Counted from the first letter of the stretch, positions 2,881-18,096 are shown. The stretch is DNA of 64,000 bases from Oceanispirochaeta crateris (GCF_008329965.1 NZ_CP036150.1:1116001-1180000), one strand, 5' to 3'. Notes: generated by a model not told the origin, from the letters alone. Made by a program: numbers and translations.

Positions 2881-4107
2881 ATGTTTAGTATAAAAGAATT
2901 AAAAAGAGCCTTTTTGACTTCTTTATGGTTTATGTTTCTGACCTTCCCTCTGTTGGTCATGAAGGTGAACACCATAACTGATACTGTCATCTGGCGCTGG
3001 ATGAACCTCCTGTATGTAGGAGTAGGTACTTTTTTCCTGTCCATTTTATGGAAATACCTTTTGGAAAGAAGAGATGCAAAAGGATCTGATTCAACAAAGA
3101 ATCCCTTTAATGAAAAGATCAGCAAATATATGAAAAACAAAAGGGTAAAAACTTCAGCAATAGTAGCTTTGCTTTTAATTGTTATTATTTATCCCTTTAT
3201 AATGTCTATGTACCAAACCAGTATTATGACAACAGCTCTTATGTATGTTGTTCTGGGACTTGGTCTGAATATAGTTGTAGGTTTTGGTGGTTTGCTTCAC
3301 CTTGGTTATGCTGCATTTTATGCGGTTGGTGCCTATACTTATGGATTGTTATTTTATCATTTTGGCATAAGTTTTTGGATCTGCCTTCCCTTAGGAGCCT
3401 TTCTCAGTGCCGTCTTTGGTATTCTTCTGGGATTTCCTATCCTTCGTCTCAGAGGAGACTATTTGGCCATTGTTACTCTGGCTTTCGGTGAAATCGTACG
3501 ATTGATACTTGAAAACTGGAATGACTTTTCTTTTGGACCCAGTGGTATAGCCAACATTCCGAGACCGGATTTTTTCGGTCAAAAGCTAAGATTAGCTCAG
3601 GTTACCAATTTTACATATTTTATTGCCATTGGATTGACAATATTAACCATAGTTCTTATCAGAAGAATGGAAAGTTCTAAAATGGGCCGGGCTTGGGAAG
3701 CCATGAGGGAAGATGAAATTGCCTGTCAATCCATGGGTATTGATATTACAAAAGCCAAATTAACTGCATTTTCTATGGGAGCAGTATGGGCTGGTATTAT
3801 GGGTGTTCTTTTTGCTGCTAAAACAACCTTTATTAATCCTGCAAGTTTTACCACATGGGAATCAATTGTCATTCTATGTGTTGTTGTTATTGGAGGAATG
3901 GGTTCCATACCGGGAGTTATTGTTGGGGCTCTTATTTTCATACTTACACCGGAATATCTGAGAGCGTTCTCTCAGTATCGAATGCTTATCTTTGGTATAG
4001 CTCTGGTTATGATGATGATATTCAGACCCGGTGGTATTATTCCCAAAATCAGAAGATCCTATAAATTTTCCACTGATTCGAAAGAAACACAGGAGGGTGA
4101 GGCATGA
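2881..4107 (+). CDS. livM: Branched-chain amino acid ABC transporter, permease LivM
   Basis: A 408-residue permease of the LivM family. It starts with two membrane segments and a basic loop (about residues 50-85), an N-terminal extension also found in enterobacterial LivM. The conserved core follows, with LGLNIVVGFGGLLHLGYAAFYAVGAY and the coupling loop SKMGRAWEAMREDE. VVVIGGMGSIPG near the C-terminus is another family signature. It forms the heteromeric channel with LivH. Its 3' end overlaps livG by four bases (ATGA), indicating coupled translation. Confidence 0.92.
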   Translation: MFSIKELKRAFLTSLWFMFLTFPLLVMKVNTITDTVIWRWMNLLYVGVGTFFLSILWKYLLERRDAKGSDSTKNPFNEKISKYMKNKRVKTSAIVALLLIVIIYPFIMSMYQTSIMTTALMYVVLGLGLNIVVGFGGLLHLGYAAFYAVGAYTYGLLFYHFGISFWICLPLGAFLSAVFGILLGFPILRLRGDYLAIVTLAFGEIVRLILENWNDFSFGPSGIANIPRPDFFGQKLRLAQVTNFTYFIAIGLTILTIVLIRRMESSKMGRAWEAMREDEIACQSMGIDITKAKLTAFSMGAVWAGIMGVLFAAKTTFINPASFTTWESIVILCVVVIGGMGSIPGVIVGALIFILTPEYLRAFSQYRMLIFGIALVMMMIFRPGGIIPKIRRSYKFSTDSKETQEGEA

Positions 4108-4898: not shown

Positions 4899-5598
4899 AA
4901 TAAAGAATATCAGCACTTTCTATGGTAATATTCAGGCTTTAAAGGATATTTCTATAGATGTTGCAGAAGGTGAAATCATAACTCTCATTGGTGCCAATGG
5001 AGCAGGAAAGTCTACAACACTCATGTCTCTCTGTGGTATTGTACCCATCAAGTCCGGTTCTATTGAATTTGAAGGAGAAGATATTTCTTCACTCACCCCA
5101 GATAAGATTGTATCCTTGGGAATTTCACAGGTTCCTGAAGGACGTCGAATCTTCCCCCTTTTATCGGTAAAAGAAAACCTTGATATGGGTGCTTTTCTCA
5201 GAAATGACACTGAAGAAATTAAAAAAGACATCGATTATATCTATGAACTCTTTCCCCGTCTGGAAGAAAGAAAGAATCAGCAGGGTGGTACATTAAGTGG
5301 TGGAGAACAGCAGATGCTTGCCATATCCAGAGCACTTATGGCAAGACCTCGCTTACTCTTACTGGATGAACCATCCTTAGGACTAGCACCGCTGATCGTA
5401 CAGCAGATTTTTGATATCATAAAAAAGATCAACAAAGAAAATAATACAACAATTTTTCTGGTTGAACAGAATGCTAATATGGCATTGAAGATAGCTCATA
5501 GAGGGTATGTCCTAGAAACTGGACGAATCAGCTTAAGCGATGATGCGGATAAACTCCTCTCCAATGAGGGTGTTAAAAAAGCATACTTAGGAATCTAA
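4891..5598 (+). CDS. livF: Branched-chain amino acid ABC transporter, ATPase LivF
   Basis: A 235-residue ABC ATPase of normal LivF length. Walker A is GANGAGKST, the signature is LSGGEQQMLAISRA, Walker B is LLLLDEPSLGLAP, and the family motif QVPEGRRIFPLLSV is present. It forms the ATPase pair with LivG. It is the last gene of the operon, whose end is marked by a long perfect hairpin four bases after the stop. Confidence 0.93.
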   Translation: MLKIKNISTFYGNIQALKDISIDVAEGEIITLIGANGAGKSTTLMSLCGIVPIKSGSIEFEGEDISSLTPDKIVSLGISQVPEGRRIFPLLSVKENLDMGAFLRNDTEEIKKDIDYIYELFPRLEERKNQQGGTLSGGEQQMLAISRALMARPRLLLLDEPSLGLAPLIVQQIFDIIKKINKENNTTIFLVEQNANMALKIAHRGYVLETGRISLSDDADKLLSNEGVKKAYLGI

Positions 5599-6542: not shown

Positions 6543-6571
6543 TTGACGGAATCTTTAGAAGTCCCTATAAT
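6543..6571 (+). promoter_or_regulatory. Sigma-70 promoter of the methyltransferase/peptide/radical SAM operon
   Basis: TTGACG at 6543-6548 and a perfect TATAAT at 6566-6571 are 17 bases apart. Transcription should begin near 6578, leaving a leader of about 18 nt that contains AAGGA at 6583-6587 before the ATG at 6596. A second TATAAT at 6527-6532 has no matching -35 box. No operator palindrome was recognised. Confidence 0.75.
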
Positions 6572-6595: not shown

Positions 6596-7240
6596 ATGAA
6601 AAATATAGATGCCATTAATATTAGATACACAGAATTAGCAGACAGTGATTGCTGTTTATCCTGCGGAAAAGCCATTCAATTTGCTGGTGCACAGGAAGGT
6701 GAGGTATGTCTGGACCTGGGTAGTGGAAGAGGAAATGATGTTCTGAGGATGGCGGATCAAGTTGGTCCCACAGGGTTTGTTTATGGAATAGACCTTTCTG
6801 ATGGCATGATTAAAAAAGCAAGAAAAACAGCTGAAAAACTGAATATTTCAAATGTCGAATTTATACATTCTGATCTTGAAACATTGCCTCTTAAATGTGG
6901 AACAGTTGATTTAGTTATATCGAATTGTGTGCTCAACCATTTGGATAACAAGGCTCGTGCATGGTCTGAAATCTATCGAGTCATCAAAACCGGAGGAAGG
7001 TTCACAATCAGTGATATTTATTCGTCTGAAACGGTACCTGAAGAATATGCCAAGGATCCTGTGGCTGTTTCTGAATGCTGGGCTGGAGCCGTTACAAAAG
7101 ATGTTTATCTTCAGCTACTTGAAGATGCAGGATTTACACAGGTGAATATCCTGGAAGAAAGCAAGCCCTATGAAAAAGGGAAGATTAGTGTGGTCAGTTT
7201 CACATTGACTGGTTTTAAAGCCGGGAAATGTTGCTGTTAA
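6596..7240 (+). CDS. ArsM-like SAM-dependent methyltransferase
   Basis: A 214-residue class I methyltransferase most like the arsenite methyltransferase (ArsM) family. The SAM motif LDLGSGRGNDV is at about residues 39-49, the acidic-loop strand YGIDLSDGM follows, and the family stretch VISNCVLNHLDNKARAWSEIYRVIK includes Cys111. SECWAGA carries Cys161, at the place of a conserved ArsM metalloid-binding Cys. The N-terminus has Cys19, Cys20 and Cys23, and the protein ends in three cysteines (212-214). ArsM enzymes transfer methyl groups to As(III) bound by thiols. Here the gene leads an operon with a Cys peptide and a radical SAM maturase, so the substrate could be a metalloid, the peptide's thiols, or a metalloid bound to the peptide. 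The family is well supported, but the substrate is inference. Confidence 0.8.
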   Translation: MKNIDAINIRYTELADSDCCLSCGKAIQFAGAQEGEVCLDLGSGRGNDVLRMADQVGPTGFVYGIDLSDGMIKKARKTAEKLNISNVEFIHSDLETLPLKCGTVDLVISNCVLNHLDNKARAWSEIYRVIKTGGRFTISDIYSSETVPEEYAKDPVAVSECWAGAVTKDVYLQLLEDAGFTQVNILEESKPYEKGKISVVSFTLTGFKAGKCCC

Positions 7241-7263
7241 ATAAGTAATAGGAGGCAGAGTTT

Positions 7264-7359
7264 ATGAAATCTCTTATCCGCAAAAAAACGGGAAATTCAA
7301 TAAAAACAGCCCAGTGTTGTGCAAAAATTTCCCCTGTTGTGGCAGGATGCCACGACTGA
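7264..7359 (+). CDS. 31-residue Cys-containing peptide, candidate RiPP precursor
   Basis: This small gene has an unusually strong signal: GGAGG at 7251-7255 sits eight bases before the ATG. The product is M-K-S-L-I-R-K-K-T-G-N-S-I-K-T-A followed by Q-C-C-A-K-I-S-P-V-V-A-G-C-H-D. The first 16 residues are basic and polar with no Cys, like a leader. The last 15 hold all three cysteines and the only His, like a core. It lies 23 bases after the methyltransferase and 42 bases before a SPASM radical SAM enzyme, the usual place for a precursor. A stem-loop follows its TGA, which would raise its transcript level relative to downstream genes. No homologue is recalled. The TGA is in frame with the radical SAM gene, with no stop between, so readthrough is possible but unproven. 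Confidence 0.7.
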   Translation: MKSLIRKKTGNSIKTAQCCAKISPVVAGCHD

Positions 7360-7366
7360 TGTCGTT

Positions 7367-7388
7367 CCGGGCCGTATGGCCCGGTTTT
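7367..7388 (+). terminator. GC-rich hairpin plus T4 between peptide and radical SAM genes
   Basis: CCGGGCC at 7367-7373 and GGCCCGG at 7378-7384 form a perfect 7-bp GC stem with loop GTAT, followed by TTTT at 7385-7388. It resembles a leaky intrinsic terminator. Placed between a precursor and its maturase, it would allow much peptide mRNA and little enzyme mRNA. It starts eight bases after the peptide's TGA, so a SECIS-like role was also considered. The loop does not match the E. coli type. Confidence 0.65.
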
Positions 7389-7401
7389 AAAAGGAATCAT
7401 A

Positions 7402-8715
7402 ATGAAATTAAGAAAATCTAAGCATACAATTACAGCAAAACTACAAGACTCTGATTCTTGGTATATTCTAAATACACTCAGTGGCGAAGCAGATCTACTT
7501 GAATCCGAAATGGCAGTTCAATTTCAAAATAACACCCTTGAAGACCCAACACCCTTCATAGAAAAAGGGTACTTCATGGATGAAGAAACTGAAAATTCAT
7601 TGTTCAAAAATGCCTATTTGGAGTTCTCTGACAATCAGGAAAAAGCAGAAATCCAAGTTTTTTATGTTCCTGACTATTCATGCAATTTCAAGTGTACTTA
7701 TTGCTACCAAGAAGAGTATGTTCAAGACTCCAGACCTCAGAATCAGAAGGATATTATTGATGCATTTTTTACATATTTGGACCAAAAGTTTTTAGGAAAA
7801 TCATTTTACCTGACTCTTTTTGGAGGAGAACCTCTTCTTCCATCTGATTCCCATAGAAAAACTATAGAATATTTTCTGGATAAGGCCGATGAGAGAAATT
7901 TGTCTCTTGCCATTGTGACAAATGGTTTTTCACTAGAGTCTTATCTTCCCAGATTAAAAAAATCCAAGTTACGTGAAATTCAATTGACAATTGATGGCCC
8001 CAAGGATATGCATGATATAAGAAGACCACTAAAAAGTGGTGGAGAAACCTTTGATAAAGTATCTAATGCGGTCTCTCTTTGTCTTGAAAATGATATCCCC
8101 GTAAACCTAAGAGTTGTCCTGGATAAACAAAATATAGATAGTCTTCCTCAATTGGCAGATCATGCCATCCGAAAAGGCTGGACCGCATCGAGTCTATTTA
8201 AGACTCAATTAGGAAGAAATTATGAACTCCATTCCTGCCAGAAAGAGCATGAATTTTTATTCAGCAGGATCAGTATGTATGAGCACATATATAAAATGCT
8301 GCAGGAACATCCTGAAGTTTTAGAATTCCACAGACCAGCATTTTCACTCTCCAGATTTCTATATGAACAAGGAGAATTGCCGGATACTTTGTTTGATTCC
8401 TGTCCTGGTGCCAAAACGGAATGGGCTTTCGATTACACCGGCAGAATATATTCCTGTACGGCTACTGTCGGCAAAGATGGAGAAGAACTGGGTGAGTTTT
8501 ATCCGGAAATTAAATTAAATGATCAAGTAATTGAACAGTGGCAGGATCGAGATATCTGCTCAATTGAAGAATGTAAAGACTGCTCTGTACAATTAGCCTG
8601 TGGTGGCGGTTGTGCGGCGGTAGCGAAAAACAGGACAGGCAGTGTTTTATCACCAGATTGCCGTCCAGTGAAAGAACTCATGTCCTTGGGTTTTTCATCA
8701 TATTTTGATAAATAG
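7402..8715 (+). CDS. Radical SAM/SPASM protein, putative peptide maturase
   Basis: A 437-residue enzyme. Residues 1-85 form an N-terminal domain of the kind found in SPASM peptide maturases. The radical SAM cluster motif CxxxCxxC uses Cys94, Cys98 and Cys101 in SCNFKCTYCYQ. LFGGEPLLP follows as the SAM-binding GGE motif. The C-terminal SPASM domain has Cys386, Cys391, Cys394, Cys400, Cys404 and Cys420 in the pattern CxxCx5CxxxC...C, so it should bind auxiliary Fe-S clusters. Such enzymes crosslink or epimerise ribosomal peptides. The adjacent 31-residue Cys peptide is the obvious substrate. AAAAGGA at 7389-7395 supports the ATG. Its TAG overlaps the AGGAG ribosome-binding site of the next gene. 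Family call is firm, and the substrate is inferred from position. Confidence 0.88.
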   Translation: MKLRKSKHTITAKLQDSDSWYILNTLSGEADLLESEMAVQFQNNTLEDPTPFIEKGYFMDEETENSLFKNAYLEFSDNQEKAEIQVFYVPDYSCNFKCTYCYQEEYVQDSRPQNQKDIIDAFFTYLDQKFLGKSFYLTLFGGEPLLPSDSHRKTIEYFLDKADERNLSLAIVTNGFSLESYLPRLKKSKLREIQLTIDGPKDMHDIRRPLKSGGETFDKVSNAVSLCLENDIPVNLRVVLDKQNIDSLPQLADHAIRKGWTASSLFKTQLGRNYELHSCQKEHEFLFSRISMYEHIYKMLQEHPEVLEFHRPAFSLSRFLYEQGELPDTLFDSCPGAKTEWAFDYTGRIYSCTATVGKDGEELGEFYPEIKLNDQVIEQWQDRDICSIEECKDCSVQLACGGGCAAVAKNRTGSVLSPDCRPVKELMSLGFSSYFDK

Positions 8716-8727
8716 GAGTTGCTTAAA

Positions 8728-10011
8728 ATGGCAGGAAAAATTGTTGAACTGAATGCAGACGCATGGAAATCGGACGTACTTGAAGGTGGAAAAGTTGTTG
8801 TCGATTTTTACTCTACCGAATGTCCCCCCTGTGAAGCCTTAGCTTCAAAATTTACAGCATTGAGTGAATTGTATGGGGATGATCTGAAATTTGTAAAGAT
8901 ATTTAGGCAGGGAAATCGAGAGTTGAGCGAAAAGCTGGGAGTCTCAAGTTCACCAACATTATTATATTTTGAAGATGGCAAGGAAATTGCCGATCGTCAA
9001 TCCGGAGGAATTAAGAGATCTTCCATAGTGAAAACACTTGATAAAATGGTGGGATCATCTAGAGCAGACGCCATACATAAGAGCATAAAATCTTTTACAT
9101 CTGAATATGATGTTGCTGTTTTAGGTGGTGGTCCTGCCGGTCTTACAGCGTCTACATATCTGGGACAGGCCCATTTAAAAACGGTCATTATAGATATAGC
9201 CTTAACAGGTGGATATATGTCAACAACTCATCAGGTCTCTAATTATCCCGGTTTTATAGACCCTCAGCAGGGCTTTATGCTGGCTCATTTTATGAGTGAG
9301 CAGACCAAAGGCGCTGGTGTCGATTTTAGATCTGCCGTTGATGTAACATCCATTGACTTGACTAAGAAAGAAATACTGATAGATGGTGTTGAAACTATCA
9401 AGGCTAAAAAAATTATCATTGCCACAGGTTCTTCTCCAAGACCCCTTGGTGTACCTGGGGAAAAAGAATACGGTGGGAACGGCATTTCCTATTGTGCAAC
9501 CTGTGATGCTAAATACTTCGATGGGAAAGATGTCATCGTCATCGGCGGTGGTAATAGTGCCATTGAAGAATCACTTTTTATTGCTAAGTTTGCAAAATCT
9601 ATCACTATTATTCATCAGTTCGCAGAACTCCAGGCGAATAAACAGGCTCAGGAAGAAGTTTTTAAGAACAAAAGTATTAACATTCTCTTTGAACATGAAC
9701 CACGAGAGTTTATAAAGAATGGTTCTATGGATATGTCGGTTGTGGTTGAAGACTTAAAAACAAAAGAACGAAAAACACTCAATACAAATGGTATTTTTGT
9801 ATTTGTTGGTTTTATTCCCAATTTAACTGGATTCCCTGAATCCCTTGAAAAAGATCAGTTTGGATACCTGGTCACCGATGAAGATATGCTGACAAACATT
9901 CCCGATGTGTACGCTGCAGGAGACATTCGAACCAAAAAATTCAGACAGATCACAACGGCAGTTTCTGATGGAACAATTGCTGCCATAGCTATTTCCAAGG
10001 AACTTAGTTGA
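8728..10011 (+). CDS. Thioredoxin-thioredoxin reductase fusion
   Basis: A 427-residue two-domain flavoprotein. Residues 1-110 are a thioredoxin fold with active-site CPPC at Cys32/Cys35 and cis-Pro in SSSPTLLYF. Residues about 125-427 are a low-molecular-weight thioredoxin reductase: FAD motif GGGPAG near 131, redox motif CATC at Cys256/Cys259, nucleotide motif GGGNSA near 272, and FAD motif DVYAAGDIR near the end. It should pass electrons from NAD(P)H through FAD to the fused thioredoxin. Most fusions have thioredoxin at the C-terminus, whereas here it is N-terminal. AGGAG at 8714-8718 selects the ATG at 8728 over an upstream TTG. As last gene of the operon it probably keeps the peptide's or methyltransferase's thiols reduced. 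Confidence 0.87.
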   Translation: MAGKIVELNADAWKSDVLEGGKVVVDFYSTECPPCEALASKFTALSELYGDDLKFVKIFRQGNRELSEKLGVSSSPTLLYFEDGKEIADRQSGGIKRSSIVKTLDKMVGSSRADAIHKSIKSFTSEYDVAVLGGGPAGLTASTYLGQAHLKTVIIDIALTGGYMSTTHQVSNYPGFIDPQQGFMLAHFMSEQTKGAGVDFRSAVDVTSIDLTKKEILIDGVETIKAKKIIIATGSSPRPLGVPGEKEYGGNGISYCATCDAKYFDGKDVIVIGGGNSAIEESLFIAKFAKSITIIHQFAELQANKQAQEEVFKNKSINILFEHEPREFIKNGSMDMSVVVEDLKTKERKTLNTNGIFVFVGFIPNLTGFPESLEKDQFGYLVTDEDMLTNIPDVYAAGDIRTKKFRQITTAVSDGTIAAIAISKELS

Positions 10012-14138: not shown

Positions 14139-14963
14139 ATGGACATTAGGAAAATGATGCTTCCTGAGGGCTGGTATCCACATAATCCGCATCATGCTGA
14201 ATTACAGATAGACAATTGGAAAAGAAATATACAGCCTTTAAATAAAAAGATTGTCTCTGGTATTGGTCCTCATGCCGGCTGGTTTTTTTCAGGGAAACAG
14301 GCCTTTCAGCTTGTCAGTTCCATTCCGAAAGAGACGCAATTACTTATCATTGCTGGTGGCCATTTAAATCGAGGATTGAAGAATAGAATTTTAAATTTTG
14401 CTAATTTTGAGACACCCTTTGGGTCTCTAAAACTTGATAAAGAGGCCTCGAATGCTTTATGTTCCGATTTTACCTCAGATTATGATTCTGATAATACAGT
14501 AGAAATCTATCTACCTCTCATAAAATATATCTTTCCCCATATTAAAATCTTACCCGTAAGGCTAACTCCCGAGACAAGTGCCGTTCAATGGGGAGTCGCC
14601 TGTCAAAACTACTGTAGAAATCACAACATATCTGCTTTTTTCTTAGGTTCTACAGACCTTTCACACTATGGAAATCGCTTTGGATACACAGAGTTTGGCG
14701 ATGATCTGCAGTCTCGAAGAATTGTCAAATCCTACGATCAACAATTCCTTGATTCTCTTTGTGTGATGAATACAGATTTATCCCTGGAAATAGTTGAAAG
14801 TCATCATACAGCCTGTTCTGCTGGAGCTGCCCTGGGGGCATGCGGTTTTGCCCAGTCTGCCGGTATAGAGGGAGGAGAGATTATTGAACAGCGTTATAGC
14901 TATGACCTAATTCCAGATGATTCAAATGAATTTGTTGGCTATGGAACTGTTGCCTATTCATAA
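14139..14963 (+). CDS. MEMO/AmmeMemoRadiSam system protein B homologue
   Basis: A 274-residue protein of the MEMO1 family, related to extradiol dioxygenases. The family motifs are GPHAGWFFSG near residue 47, a GSTDLSHYG motif in the middle, and ESHHTACSAGAALGA near the C-terminus, which supply the His and Cys residues of the pocket. Bacterial members are usually found with an AMMECR1 protein and a radical SAM protein, but neither partner is next to it. AAAGGA at 14127-14132 selects the ATG at 14139 over one at 14112. The biochemical role of the bacterial protein is not settled. Its end overlaps the convergent DUF115 gene by 10 bases. Confidence 0.8.
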   Translation: MDIRKMMLPEGWYPHNPHHAELQIDNWKRNIQPLNKKIVSGIGPHAGWFFSGKQAFQLVSSIPKETQLLIIAGGHLNRGLKNRILNFANFETPFGSLKLDKEASNALCSDFTSDYDSDNTVEIYLPLIKYIFPHIKILPVRLTPETSAVQWGVACQNYCRNHNISAFFLGSTDLSHYGNRFGYTEFGDDLQSRRIVKSYDQQFLDSLCVMNTDLSLEIVESHHTACSAGAALGACGFAQSAGIEGGEIIEQRYSYDLIPDDSNEFVGYGTVAYS

Positions 14964-16603
14964 AATACCTTTCTTTTCAGAAGTTCCAAAGTCCATTTTC
15001 TGGCAAGGTTTAAGGCTTCTTCTCCTGTAGAGCAATTCTTTCTGAAATGAGCCGCTGCAGGTAAAATAGACATTAAAGTACCTTTTTGATTATGGGTGAG
15101 GGAACTTAGGAATTCTATCAATGAAGTATCAATCACAGGAAAATCATGAATTTCTCTGGCAAAGGAGTGTAAAAAATCTGAACGACTCTGAAATGGTATT
15201 CCCGCGCTCATCATGCGAAAGTCTCCGGATGTTCCCTTCTGATTCTGAATGAAATCAAGATGCACTCCGTCACCCCTGATATTTTCGATGAAAGCGTTCA
15301 TGGAGTTCGCTTTATTTTCAAGACAAGTTTTGTAATGAATCATAGGTTTGGATATGTATCGAAAGCCTCCGGGAAATTTTTCCCGGTCCAAGGATTGATT
15401 ATGGAGAACAAAACTTAGAAATTGACTTTCTATTCCATCCATTCTTGAACTCTGTTTTTGAAAATAAGGGAAAATATAGCTTCCCCTGGAATAGGGCTTC
15501 CCATAAGGATATGAAAAATCAGTCCCAAACAGACTAATTTGTTTTGCTCCCAGTGACTCGGCAAGACTCAAAGCTGCATGAGTAACATTTCCACCGGATG
15601 TATCGATTCTGGGAAAGCTCCTGAAATTTCTGCTCACATAATTTGAAAAGGGATGATCACTCGTAAAAAAAAAGTATTTTTTCGCTATTCGAGTTAAAAA
15701 AGGGGGAGATGCCAAATCAAGGATCAGTGGGATATCTTCGGGGTAACCCTGCATAAAATGATGATAGCTGATATGTTGGCAATCAATAGAAATGACCATA
15801 TCCGGTTTTATACCATGGCTTAGTAAAACAGGAAGAGAGGTGTCTGTGGCTATGAGTGTGGATTCATTTCTATACTGTAAAAGATGGTCAATCTGTTTTT
15901 CAAGGCTTGGACCAGCGGCTGTAATTTGAACTTTTTTAACGGGATTCAGAGTCAAGGTCGTCTCTTCGGAGGCTTTCAGATTCGTTAGAGTATTGACAAA
16001 CCATTTTTTACCAAAATGGGTTTGGACCGTATAATCATCTGTTATGGTAGAAATAGATTCTTTGACAACATCTGCCACTCTATGGAAAAAATCTGATGTA
16101 TTGTCCACTCTAGGACGCAAACTGATACTTTGAAGATCACCTGAAAGAACTGGAATATACCTGGACAAAAGAAAAGGCTTAAAGTCCTCCGCATTCCGGG
16201 ATATCCATATGGAGACTCTTTTATCAAGAAAAAGAGAGCTTAAATCCATTTCTCTTAGTATTGCTCTTATGATTTCAGGTTCTGTATCAATGATTAAAAG
16301 ACTCACTAAATTCTGATTTTCAAGGAGTGGTAATAAGTGATATGCTCCTCCTAATCCATAGGCCAAAATTGTTCCTGCAGTATTTTGAGAAGATGAAAAT
16401 CTCCTTCCTTCCTTAATAGGATTAAACCGGGAATGCAAGGGTTTATCACTCCCGGAATTGCTTAATACTGGAACAAGACTGCCATCCCTTGCCGTTATAA
16501 AATGGACATGTGGGGAATCATTGCTTCGGCTAATCAGATGAGCCGCTTCTGGAGAAGTCTGAGAGAGACACAGTAGATTTTTATCAAGGAAATCGTTCTT
16601 CAT
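14954..16603 (-). CDS. DUF115 / Maf-type motility-associated protein (copy 1)
   Basis: A 549-residue protein with a central DUF115 (MptE-like) domain. ITAAGPSLEKQIDHL opens a nucleotide-sugar or pterin-binding fold, and the DTSLPVLLSHGIKPDMVISID stretch is typical, with FGTDFSYP further on. Family members called motility-associated factors are linked in other bacteria to transfer of nonulosonic acids to flagellin. No membrane segment is seen. Its start overlaps the stop of the next upstream paralogue by four bases, so the two are translated together. The family is clear, and a flagellin-glycosylation role in a spirochaete is inference. Confidence 0.75.
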   Translation of the reverse strand: MKNDFLDKNLLCLSQTSPEAAHLISRSNDSPHVHFITARDGSLVPVLSNSGSDKPLHSRFNPIKEGRRFSSSQNTAGTILAYGLGGAYHLLPLLENQNLVSLLIIDTEPEIIRAILREMDLSSLFLDKRVSIWISRNAEDFKPFLLSRYIPVLSGDLQSISLRPRVDNTSDFFHRVADVVKESISTITDDYTVQTHFGKKWFVNTLTNLKASEETTLTLNPVKKVQITAAGPSLEKQIDHLLQYRNESTLIATDTSLPVLLSHGIKPDMVISIDCQHISYHHFMQGYPEDIPLILDLASPPFLTRIAKKYFFFTSDHPFSNYVSRNFRSFPRIDTSGGNVTHAALSLAESLGAKQISLFGTDFSYPYGKPYSRGSYIFPYFQKQSSRMDGIESQFLSFVLHNQSLDREKFPGGFRYISKPMIHYKTCLENKANSMNAFIENIRGDGVHLDFIQNQKGTSGDFRMMSAGIPFQSRSDFLHSFAREIHDFPVIDTSLIEFLSSLTHNQKGTLMSILPAAAHFRKNCSTGEEALNLARKWTLELLKRKVFYE

Positions 16604-18096
16604 ATGAGCTGACCGATCTTGTGAAGAAATAATTTCATCCTAGAAATGATCTCTTCAGGATTATCTGATATTGAGAACTCTGGAAACAGCTCACTACTAG
16701 TCTGATTCAAGAATTGTGTAGGGACTGAAGACTTTTCAAATTGATGAAGTTCATGATTTAAAGAACTTCTTAATTCACTGATTTTTCGAATTCTCTCTCG
16801 TAAATTGGGATAATGGATAGATCTCTTAAGAACAATTTGTTTTGTGCCTTTCATTGAAATTGAAGGTATCGTATTTTTAGTTTTAAAAGGTAAATTGACC
16901 TGTATTGGTGATAACCTTAAAAAGTTATCCGGAAATTTCTGATTTCTGAACCAGGCTGAATATGTATCCATACTCTTTGAATATCGAAAATGGTTTTCAA
17001 TTTTATAAGCCATGTCATTGGCTCTATTAAAATAGGATGAGACTCCAGGGAAAAATCTATTTTCATTTTTTAGGATAATAGATTTAAAAGAATGGGGTTC
17101 TGCATGCATTTTAATATCCTTTATACAAAAATCTAATCCCGCAATATAAATAGGATGAGTACAGATTTCTTTCAAAAATGTCAAAGCAGTGGCTGCCACA
17201 GTTCCCATCTCTGCGAGGAAGGGTAACTCGTTGTTTTTAAAAAGGAGAGACTCAATATAACTTCCTTGGTTTATCCCAGCCAAATGATTTTGATTATCCC
17301 TAAAGGAAGCTGTTACAGGAGCGATACACAAAGTAGAAGGATCCAGATATTTTAAGTGTTCACGCGCATAAAACCCAGGGTCAGTCGTAAACAGTATATC
17401 TGGAATGATATCATATTCCTTCAAAATTGATAATGATGAGGGAAGAGCGACAATGAAATAGTCTTTTTGCAATTCCTGAATACGGTCGATATGATTTTCC
17501 AATGAAGGCCCCGATGCTGCCAGGATCACAGCTCTGTCAAGAGGTGATGCAATACAGGTCGAATAGTCATGTCTAAGATAATTTCGGATGCCATTACAAA
17601 TCCAGAGTTTGGAAAATTGCCTTTTAGTTATTTCATTTCCTTGAAGTATTCTCAGGTGCTCTAATATTTTATAGCGAATATGCTTGCATTCATCTGGGAA
17701 TAAATACTTTGATGCTGGCCATTCCAAGAAAATTATATCTCTCATATTTAGTCTGGTCAGAGTTTTATCCAGTACTGTTGTGAGGGAATCATTCATGTTG
17801 GGAGCATAGGAAAATATGTTATCCAGAACTCCTTTTTCGCTGCAGTATTGATATGTGTTTGAATGAAAGAAAACAGAAAAAATTAAGTTTTGGGGATGAA
17901 TCAGACTCAATTCATTCAAAAGATAACCTAATCCCGGTTCCAGCACGATGATCAATTTGTTTTTACTATAGCTTTTATCTTGAATAAAATTATTAACAAA
18001 AAGACGCGCTTCTTTTAAAGGATCATATTTAGAATGAAGATATTTATTATTGATTCTGGCCGTAGGAGTTCCTGATTGACTCATCTCCAGATGCAT
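16600..18096 (-). CDS. DUF115 / Maf-type motility-associated protein (copy 2)
   Basis: A 498-residue paralogue of the gene downstream. The core AVILAASGPSLENHIDRI and the partner motif SSLSILKEYDIIPDILFTTDPGF match the same MptE-like fold, and IAGLDFCIKD corresponds to FGTDFSYP of the other copy. The N-terminal third differs, with KLIIVLEPGLGYLLNEL in place of the other copy's LAYGLGGAYHLLPL, which is the same position in the family. It lies one base after the GAF-like gene and four bases into its partner. Two different copies side by side suggest separate acceptors or a heteromer. Confidence 0.75.
   Translation of the reverse strand: MHLEMSQSGTPTARINNKYLHSKYDPLKEARLFVNNFIQDKSYSKNKLIIVLEPGLGYLLNELSLIHPQNLIFSVFFHSNTYQYCSEKGVLDNIFSYAPNMNDSLTTVLDKTLTRLNMRDIIFLEWPASKYLFPDECKHIRYKILEHLRILQGNEITKRQFSKLWICNGIRNYLRHDYSTCIASPLDRAVILAASGPSLENHIDRIQELQKDYFIVALPSSLSILKEYDIIPDILFTTDPGFYAREHLKYLDPSTLCIAPVTASFRDNQNHLAGINQGSYIESLLFKNNELPFLAEMGTVAATALTFLKEICTHPIYIAGLDFCIKDIKMHAEPHSFKSIILKNENRFFPGVSSYFNRANDMAYKIENHFRYSKSMDTYSAWFRNQKFPDNFLRLSPIQVNLPFKTKNTIPSISMKGTKQIVLKRSIHYPNLRERIRKISELRSSLNHELHQFEKSSVPTQFLNQTSSELFPEFSISDNPEEIISRMKLFLHKIGQLI

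Follow-up and report, generated by a model that had tools for sequence, protein, structure and literature searches.

A four-gene cassette in Oceanispirochaeta crateris

We analysed a 64,000-nucleotide stretch of the genome of Oceanispirochaeta crateris (NZ_CP036150.1:1116001-1180000, hereafter the window) and focus here on an operon at positions 6596-10011 that encodes a small cysteine-containing peptide and three enzymes. The four open reading frames (ORFs) lie on the plus strand, at the positions given by an earlier annotation made from the DNA of the window alone (hereafter the sequence-only reading). The first gene (6596-7240) encodes an ArsM-like S-adenosylmethionine (SAM) methyltransferase of 214 residues, with a cysteine triad (C23, C111 and C161) and a CCC tail. 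It is followed by the ORF of a 31-residue peptide, MKSLIRKKTGNSIKTAQCCAKISPVVAGCHD (7264-7359), which we consider the precursor of a ribosomally synthesised and post-translationally modified peptide (RiPP), and by the gene of a 437-residue radical SAM/SPASM enzyme assigned as the RiPP maturase (7402-8715). The last gene (8728-10011) encodes a fusion of a thioredoxin (Trx, with a CPPC motif) and a thioredoxin reductase (TrxR, with a CATC motif). The radical SAM gene is present in a single copy in the genome, a single contig of 4.01 Mb, and its position in our tree is that of a spirochaete.

The sequence-only reading also proposed a near-consensus promoter. The candidate sigma-70 promoter (TTGACG-17-TATAAT, 6543-6571, plus strand) does match the consensus at 11 of 12 positions, but promoter-like sites are no commoner across the region than in shuffled sequence. 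Ribosome-binding sites are clear upstream of the peptide (AGGAGG) and of the fusion (AGGAG, 8715-8719), and weaker upstream of the methyltransferase and radical SAM genes (AAGGAA). For the fusion gene, ATG 8728 is the most likely start, with TTG 8719 as a less favourable alternative.

Conservation of the precursor peptide and of the cassette

The small ORF was found upstream of the orthologous radical SAM enzyme in 118 of 120 loci, and in all 118 the 16 C-terminal residues of the peptide read AQCC[A/S]Kx[S/T]xxxxGCHD, immediately before the stop codon. The two exceptions are a truncated contig (L142) and a locus with no such ORF at the site (L129). Half of the core residues (A, C, C, K, G, C, H and D, eight out of 16) were invariant among 103 distinct DNA versions of the core, and Q was present in 102 of them, although all synonymous codons were in use. 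Hence, selection acts on the peptide, and the conservation of the small ORF, as judged from these alignments, is far beyond chance. The N-terminus, MKSL[I/V][K/R]KK, is conserved too, whereas the linker to the core is variable and the leader spans 14-36 residues. The core remained near-constant while the enzymes of the cassette diverged to 33-37% identity. Some peptides have an extra vicinal CC in the leader or linker, beside that of the core (L065, L092, L125, L128, L135, L137-L139 and L141).

Within the order of O. crateris, we identified the radical SAM orthologue in 11 of 26 genomes, with 53-83% identity to the window enzyme. The small cysteine ORF expected to accompany the enzyme in other spirochaetes was upstream in all 11, and its product ended in AQCCAK[I/N]SxxVAGCHD. 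The sequence-only reading had seen in the 31-residue peptide the precursor of a radical SAM RiPP operon, an idea that would have failed had homologues lacked the peptide or had the DNA been conserved in place of the reading frame. The 118 loci bear it out: the peptide is conserved as a protein while the DNA varies. The assignment of the precursor and of its radical SAM enzyme can thus be regarded as strong from comparative sequence analysis.

In the window, the reading frame of the peptide is open through its TGA stop codon into the enzyme gene, with no other stop between them. A hairpin (CCGGGCC-GTAT-GGCCCGG followed by TTTT, 7367-7384, plus strand, RNA fold z -3.45) lies 3' of this TGA, between the peptide and radical SAM genes, where the sequence-only reading had not noted it, and the genome encodes selD. 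If the TGA after CHD encoded selenocysteine, the peptide would either be a selenopeptide or continue into the radical SAM protein as its N-terminal part. We give this virtually no credence: the stop codon is TAA in 75 homologues, TGA in 29 and TAG in 13, the frame of the peptide relative to the enzyme is spread about evenly (35/38/44), and some homologues have further stops or overlapping genes. An in-frame UGA is thus not conserved, which rules out read-through, and since stops and frames vary the TGA of the window is a plain stop, selD notwithstanding. A link to selenium is also not required for the cassette, as selD was found in 8 of 11 cassette-positive and 6 of 15 cassette-negative genomes of the order.

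Two features, the tandem cysteine codons and a hairpin ending in a run of T directly before the enzyme gene, would also suit a cysteine-sensing leader peptide that attenuates the radical SAM gene via the hairpin. Yet the invariant residues extend well past the cysteines and include the C-terminal GCHD, the hairpin and its distance are variable, and 16 loci have a gap of at most 15 nt between peptide and enzyme, some of them overlapping, which leaves no space for an attenuator. The peptide is therefore not generally an attenuator; cysteine attenuation is largely refuted, and we hold it to be very improbable. Folded elements comparable to the hairpin of the window, with differing sequences, were found in 75 of the 97 loci with a gap of at least 35 nt (threshold better than z -1.5), and an Rfam search for a known RNA element returned only a match at chance level. 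The hairpin of the window is a candidate internal terminator or RNA-processing element. Such a folded element after the peptide probably reduces downstream expression, so that the peptide outnumbers the enzyme.

An alignment-based scan of genomes retrieved 298 relatives of the radical SAM enzyme, of which the best 80 were used for the analysis of flanking genes. We found the cassette of methyltransferase, peptide, radical SAM enzyme and Trx-TrxR in more than 100 genome loci of seven phyla: Spirochaetota, Bacteroidota, Ignavibacteriota, Marinimicrobia, Elusimicrobiota, Acidobacteriota and Myxococcota. One of the loci, L105, is from a cultured bacterium, Carboxylicivirga linearis. Clostridia were absent among the best 80 of the 298 relatives. 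A sample from the phylum of O. crateris gave 37 positives in 393 genomes, and a sample of Bacteroidota eight matches in 247 genomes, some of them only distant. In viral contigs, the radical SAM matches obtained were all short and weak. Divergence of the cassette enzymes was parallel, both between the radical SAM enzyme and the methyltransferase (r=0.85) and between the radical SAM enzyme and the fusion (r=0.78; 0/300 permutations). At about 26% identity, relatives of the radical SAM enzyme come without the methyltransferase, the Trx-TrxR fusion and the peptide, and the gene set therefore defines a clade. The phylum labels change 11 times on the tree for seven groups; this pattern is compatible with some horizontal transfer, and binning errors may contribute to it.

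One Myxococcales bin contains three complete cassettes with long leaders (L149, L150 and L151, on G419 contigs 70, 149 and 80). Two loci with distant radical SAM enzymes have other small ORFs. In L156 (G583:C17:25500-34500, oriented 3256-3791), two tandem near-identical ORFs of ~73 residues with a CECC motif (MAASKNLGRMEI...LTICECCIDVTIKRPG...) precede the enzyme, and are likely another pair of RiPP precursors. In L153 (oriented 5237-5479), a 61-residue cysteine ORF (...PWICVGYVDCIGKCDSICSPVVQLD) directly 3' of the radical SAM gene is a candidate precursor of another family.

Enzymes of the cassette

The radical SAM/SPASM enzyme has the complete CxxxCxxC motif (C94, C98, C101) and seven SPASM cysteines (C334, C352, C391, C394, C400, C404, C420), all invariant in 53 sequences. 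Its best profile matches are maturases of RiPPs, i.e., CefB (NF038107, 145 bits for a cut-off of 600), TIGR04463 (137 for 525) and PapB, all far under the cut-offs. The best structural match of its AlphaFold model (pLDDT, the predicted local distance difference test, 93.8) was CteB (5why/5wgg), followed by SuiB and TigE (8vpo), and a search of the PDB with the radical SAM profile also returned CteB first. The predicted N-terminus has three strands followed by three helices (b-b-b-a-a-a), as in the RiPP recognition element (RRE), and the whole-chain matches CteB and SuiB both carry RREs. The model thus fits an RRE-like N-terminal domain. Solely as a stand-in for a tethered complex, we also modelled peptide and enzyme as one read-through fusion. 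Residues 1-10 of the peptide formed a short strand (pLDDT 69), with values of ~30 for the rest, and this ordered end is weakly consistent with docking of the leader.

The system resembles SCIFF/thermocellin (CteB) and the ranthipeptides (freyrasin, PapB) in that a radical SAM enzyme with SPASM and a predicted RRE-like N-terminus is encoded directly downstream of a small cysteine peptide. In ranthipeptides, a thioether joins a cysteine to a beta or gamma carbon. CteB and PapB catalyse thioether formation (PMC8326336). Here, however, the core has three conserved cysteines, whereas SCIFF peptides are defined by six in about 45 residues, the peptide sequence is another one, and the partners are a methyltransferase and Trx-TrxR. 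The enzyme scored 89.5 bits with the SCIFF maturase profile TIGR03974, under its cut-off of 425, and was also under that of PapB. The CefB and TIGR04463/TigE maturases of cysteine-rich peptides are alike in being the best profile matches, and for TigE a structural match, but apart from the low scores they have no peptide family in common with the cassette.

The methyltransferase was rightly called ArsM-like by the sequence-only reading. It shares the fold of ArsM, and its C23, C111 and C161 align (PDB alignment) with C72, C174 and C224 of CmArsM, the As(III)-binding residues. Among 102 homologues, C111 and C161 were always present and C23 was present in 101, with one gap. On the other hand, the protein has 214 residues, lacks the C-terminal part of ArsM, belongs to a RiPP cassette and often has a Cys-rich tail (a C-terminal tail in about two thirds of the homologues). 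It scored 198.7 bits with the arsenite methyltransferase profile PRK11873, under the curated cut-off of 263, as did the methyltransferases of all cassettes in the order (176-200 bits).

These features raise the question of a metalloid substrate, in which case the CC...C of the peptide would carry As(III) or Sb(III), the ArsM-like enzyme would methylate the metalloid and Trx-TrxR would restore the thiols of the enzyme. The conserved triad speaks for this version, and Trx/TrxR is an accepted reductant system of arsenic methyltransferases. Yet ArsR, ACR3 and ArsC were not recurrent in the flanks of the 80 loci, and the specific role in arsenic or antimony suggested by the sequence-only reading found no backing there. 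In the genome of the window, ACR3 lies about 350 kb from the cassette. ACR3 scored over its cut-off in 9 of 11 cassette-positive and 10 of 15 cassette-negative genomes of the order, so that its co-occurrence is uninformative and was dropped as a link to arsenic. Together with the scores under the ArsM cut-off in every cassette, and the presence of the bona fide ArsM genes of the order in two cassette-negative genomes, this makes the metalloid version rather unlikely.

The fusion has its Trx domain ahead of the TrxR module, and both CxxC motifs, i.e., four redox cysteines, were invariant in 98 homologues, in agreement with the dedicated thioredoxin with its own reductase that had been proposed. 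The HRRxxxR motif of TrxR binds the 2'-phosphate of NADPH. It is replaced here by an HQFxxxxANK-type motif, and because HQF stands in place of HRR the sequence suggests that the fusion uses NADH or another donor. AhpF (aligned over residues 27-421) and TrxR-Trx fusions likewise combine a Trx-fold N-terminal module with a TrxR-type flavoprotein, but the protein studied here has a single canonical Trx domain, the HQFxxxxANK motif and no AhpC partner in the cassette.

Neighbouring genes and proposed role

Recurrent neighbours across the flanked loci were genes for Trx (23 loci), DUF1847 (22), DUF6132 (20), DUF302 (19), MarR (14) and sulfide:quinone reductase (SQR, 9). Regulators of the MarR or Crp families recur beside the cassette, and in Bacteroidota SQR, OsmC, TauE, rhodanese and methionine gamma-lyase were also found. 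In several loci DUF1847 and thioredoxin genes lie within the cassette, and DUF1847 is probably a functional partner. Its gene was observed between the radical SAM and Trx-TrxR genes in L052, L059, L070, L080, L081, L091, L096, L103, L107 and L109, and 3' of the cassette in several spirochaetes.

No exporter, peptidase or immunity gene was recurrent near the cassette in the flanked loci. This bears on whether the product might be secreted, as a bacteriocin or a signal of the sactipeptide or ranthipeptide type, systems which have the same layout of a radical SAM/SPASM enzyme and a small cysteine peptide. Given that the core also barely varies over seven phyla, we find such a product improbable. 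With so little variation between distant phyla, the core points to a specific intracellular function, as with pyrroloquinoline quinone (PQQ) or mycofactocin, rather than to a variable antimicrobial. For SCIFFs, wide occurrence in Clostridia has been used to argue against an antimicrobial function (PMC8326336).

We propose, with a probability of about one half, that the operon makes a RiPP with an intracellular, cofactor-like thiol role in the handling of reactive sulfur or soft elements, and not an exported antibiotic. The cassette, the conservation of the precursor, the enzyme families and their catalytic and redox residues are read from the sequences; the bond made, the substrate of the methyltransferase and the intracellular role we infer as follows. 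The precursor would consist of an N-terminal recognition part (MKSL[I/V][K/R]KK) and the 16-residue C-terminal core (AQCCAKxSxxxxGCHD). The RRE-like domain would bind the leader, and the radical SAM enzyme would modify the core, most likely by a thioether between one of the three cysteines and a non-alpha carbon, because the nearest characterised relatives (CteB, PapB) make thioethers. In the same pathway, the ArsM-like enzyme may methylate a thiol or persulfide of the peptide, or else sulfide, selenide or a metalloid as the soft element handled by it, and the Trx-TrxR fusion, probably NADH-linked, would re-reduce the resulting disulfides or persulfides. Methyltransferase and reductase would then share the thiol or soft-element chemistry of the peptide, which would stay inside the cell in its mature form as a cofactor-like thiol. 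With modest confidence, we favour sulfur over a metalloid because the recurring neighbours are thiol and sulfur genes. More tentatively, the modified CC...C-His-Asp peptide might be a cofactor across phyla that carries sulfane sulfur or a soft element as the methyl acceptor of the ArsM-like enzyme and is recycled by Trx/TrxR.

Several points weigh against an intracellular thiol cofactor. Its support here comes from sequence and predicted structure. The likeness to CteB is one of fold, at 16% identity, and the bond formed could possibly be another; a single thioether would leave only two free thiols. The replacement of HRR by HQF suggests NADH use but does not prove it. The sulfur-gene neighbours are mostly from Bacteroidota, with none around the window itself, and an exporter or peptidase may be encoded unlinked to the cassette.

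The sequence-only reading knew of no described system with this gene set, and we found none in NCBIfam (June 2026), Pfam or the open-access literature, a scope outside which lie PMC9879109 and PMC12013261 by Haft and colleagues. No NCBIfam peptide family matches the precursor, none of the curated NCBIfam models reaches its cut-off with the peptide, the maturase or the fusion, and the core string AQCCAK occurs in no open-access paper. Hence, the peptide is likely missed by annotation. By these comparisons, the system is of a known kind, radical SAM/SPASM RiPP, and its novelty is the precursor family and the unusual, obligatory set of partners. If the cofactor reading is true, the peptide represents a new class of peptide cofactor and not a natural-product toxin. 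Once the product is identified, the link between an arsenic-type methyltransferase and peptide modification would become clear, and a new strategy of anaerobes for dealing with sulfide, persulfides or metalloids could come to light.

Elsewhere in the window, the minus strand carries a pair of neighbouring ORFs (14954-18096) that resemble, by eye, paralogous motility-associated glycosyltransferases of the DUF115/Maf type.

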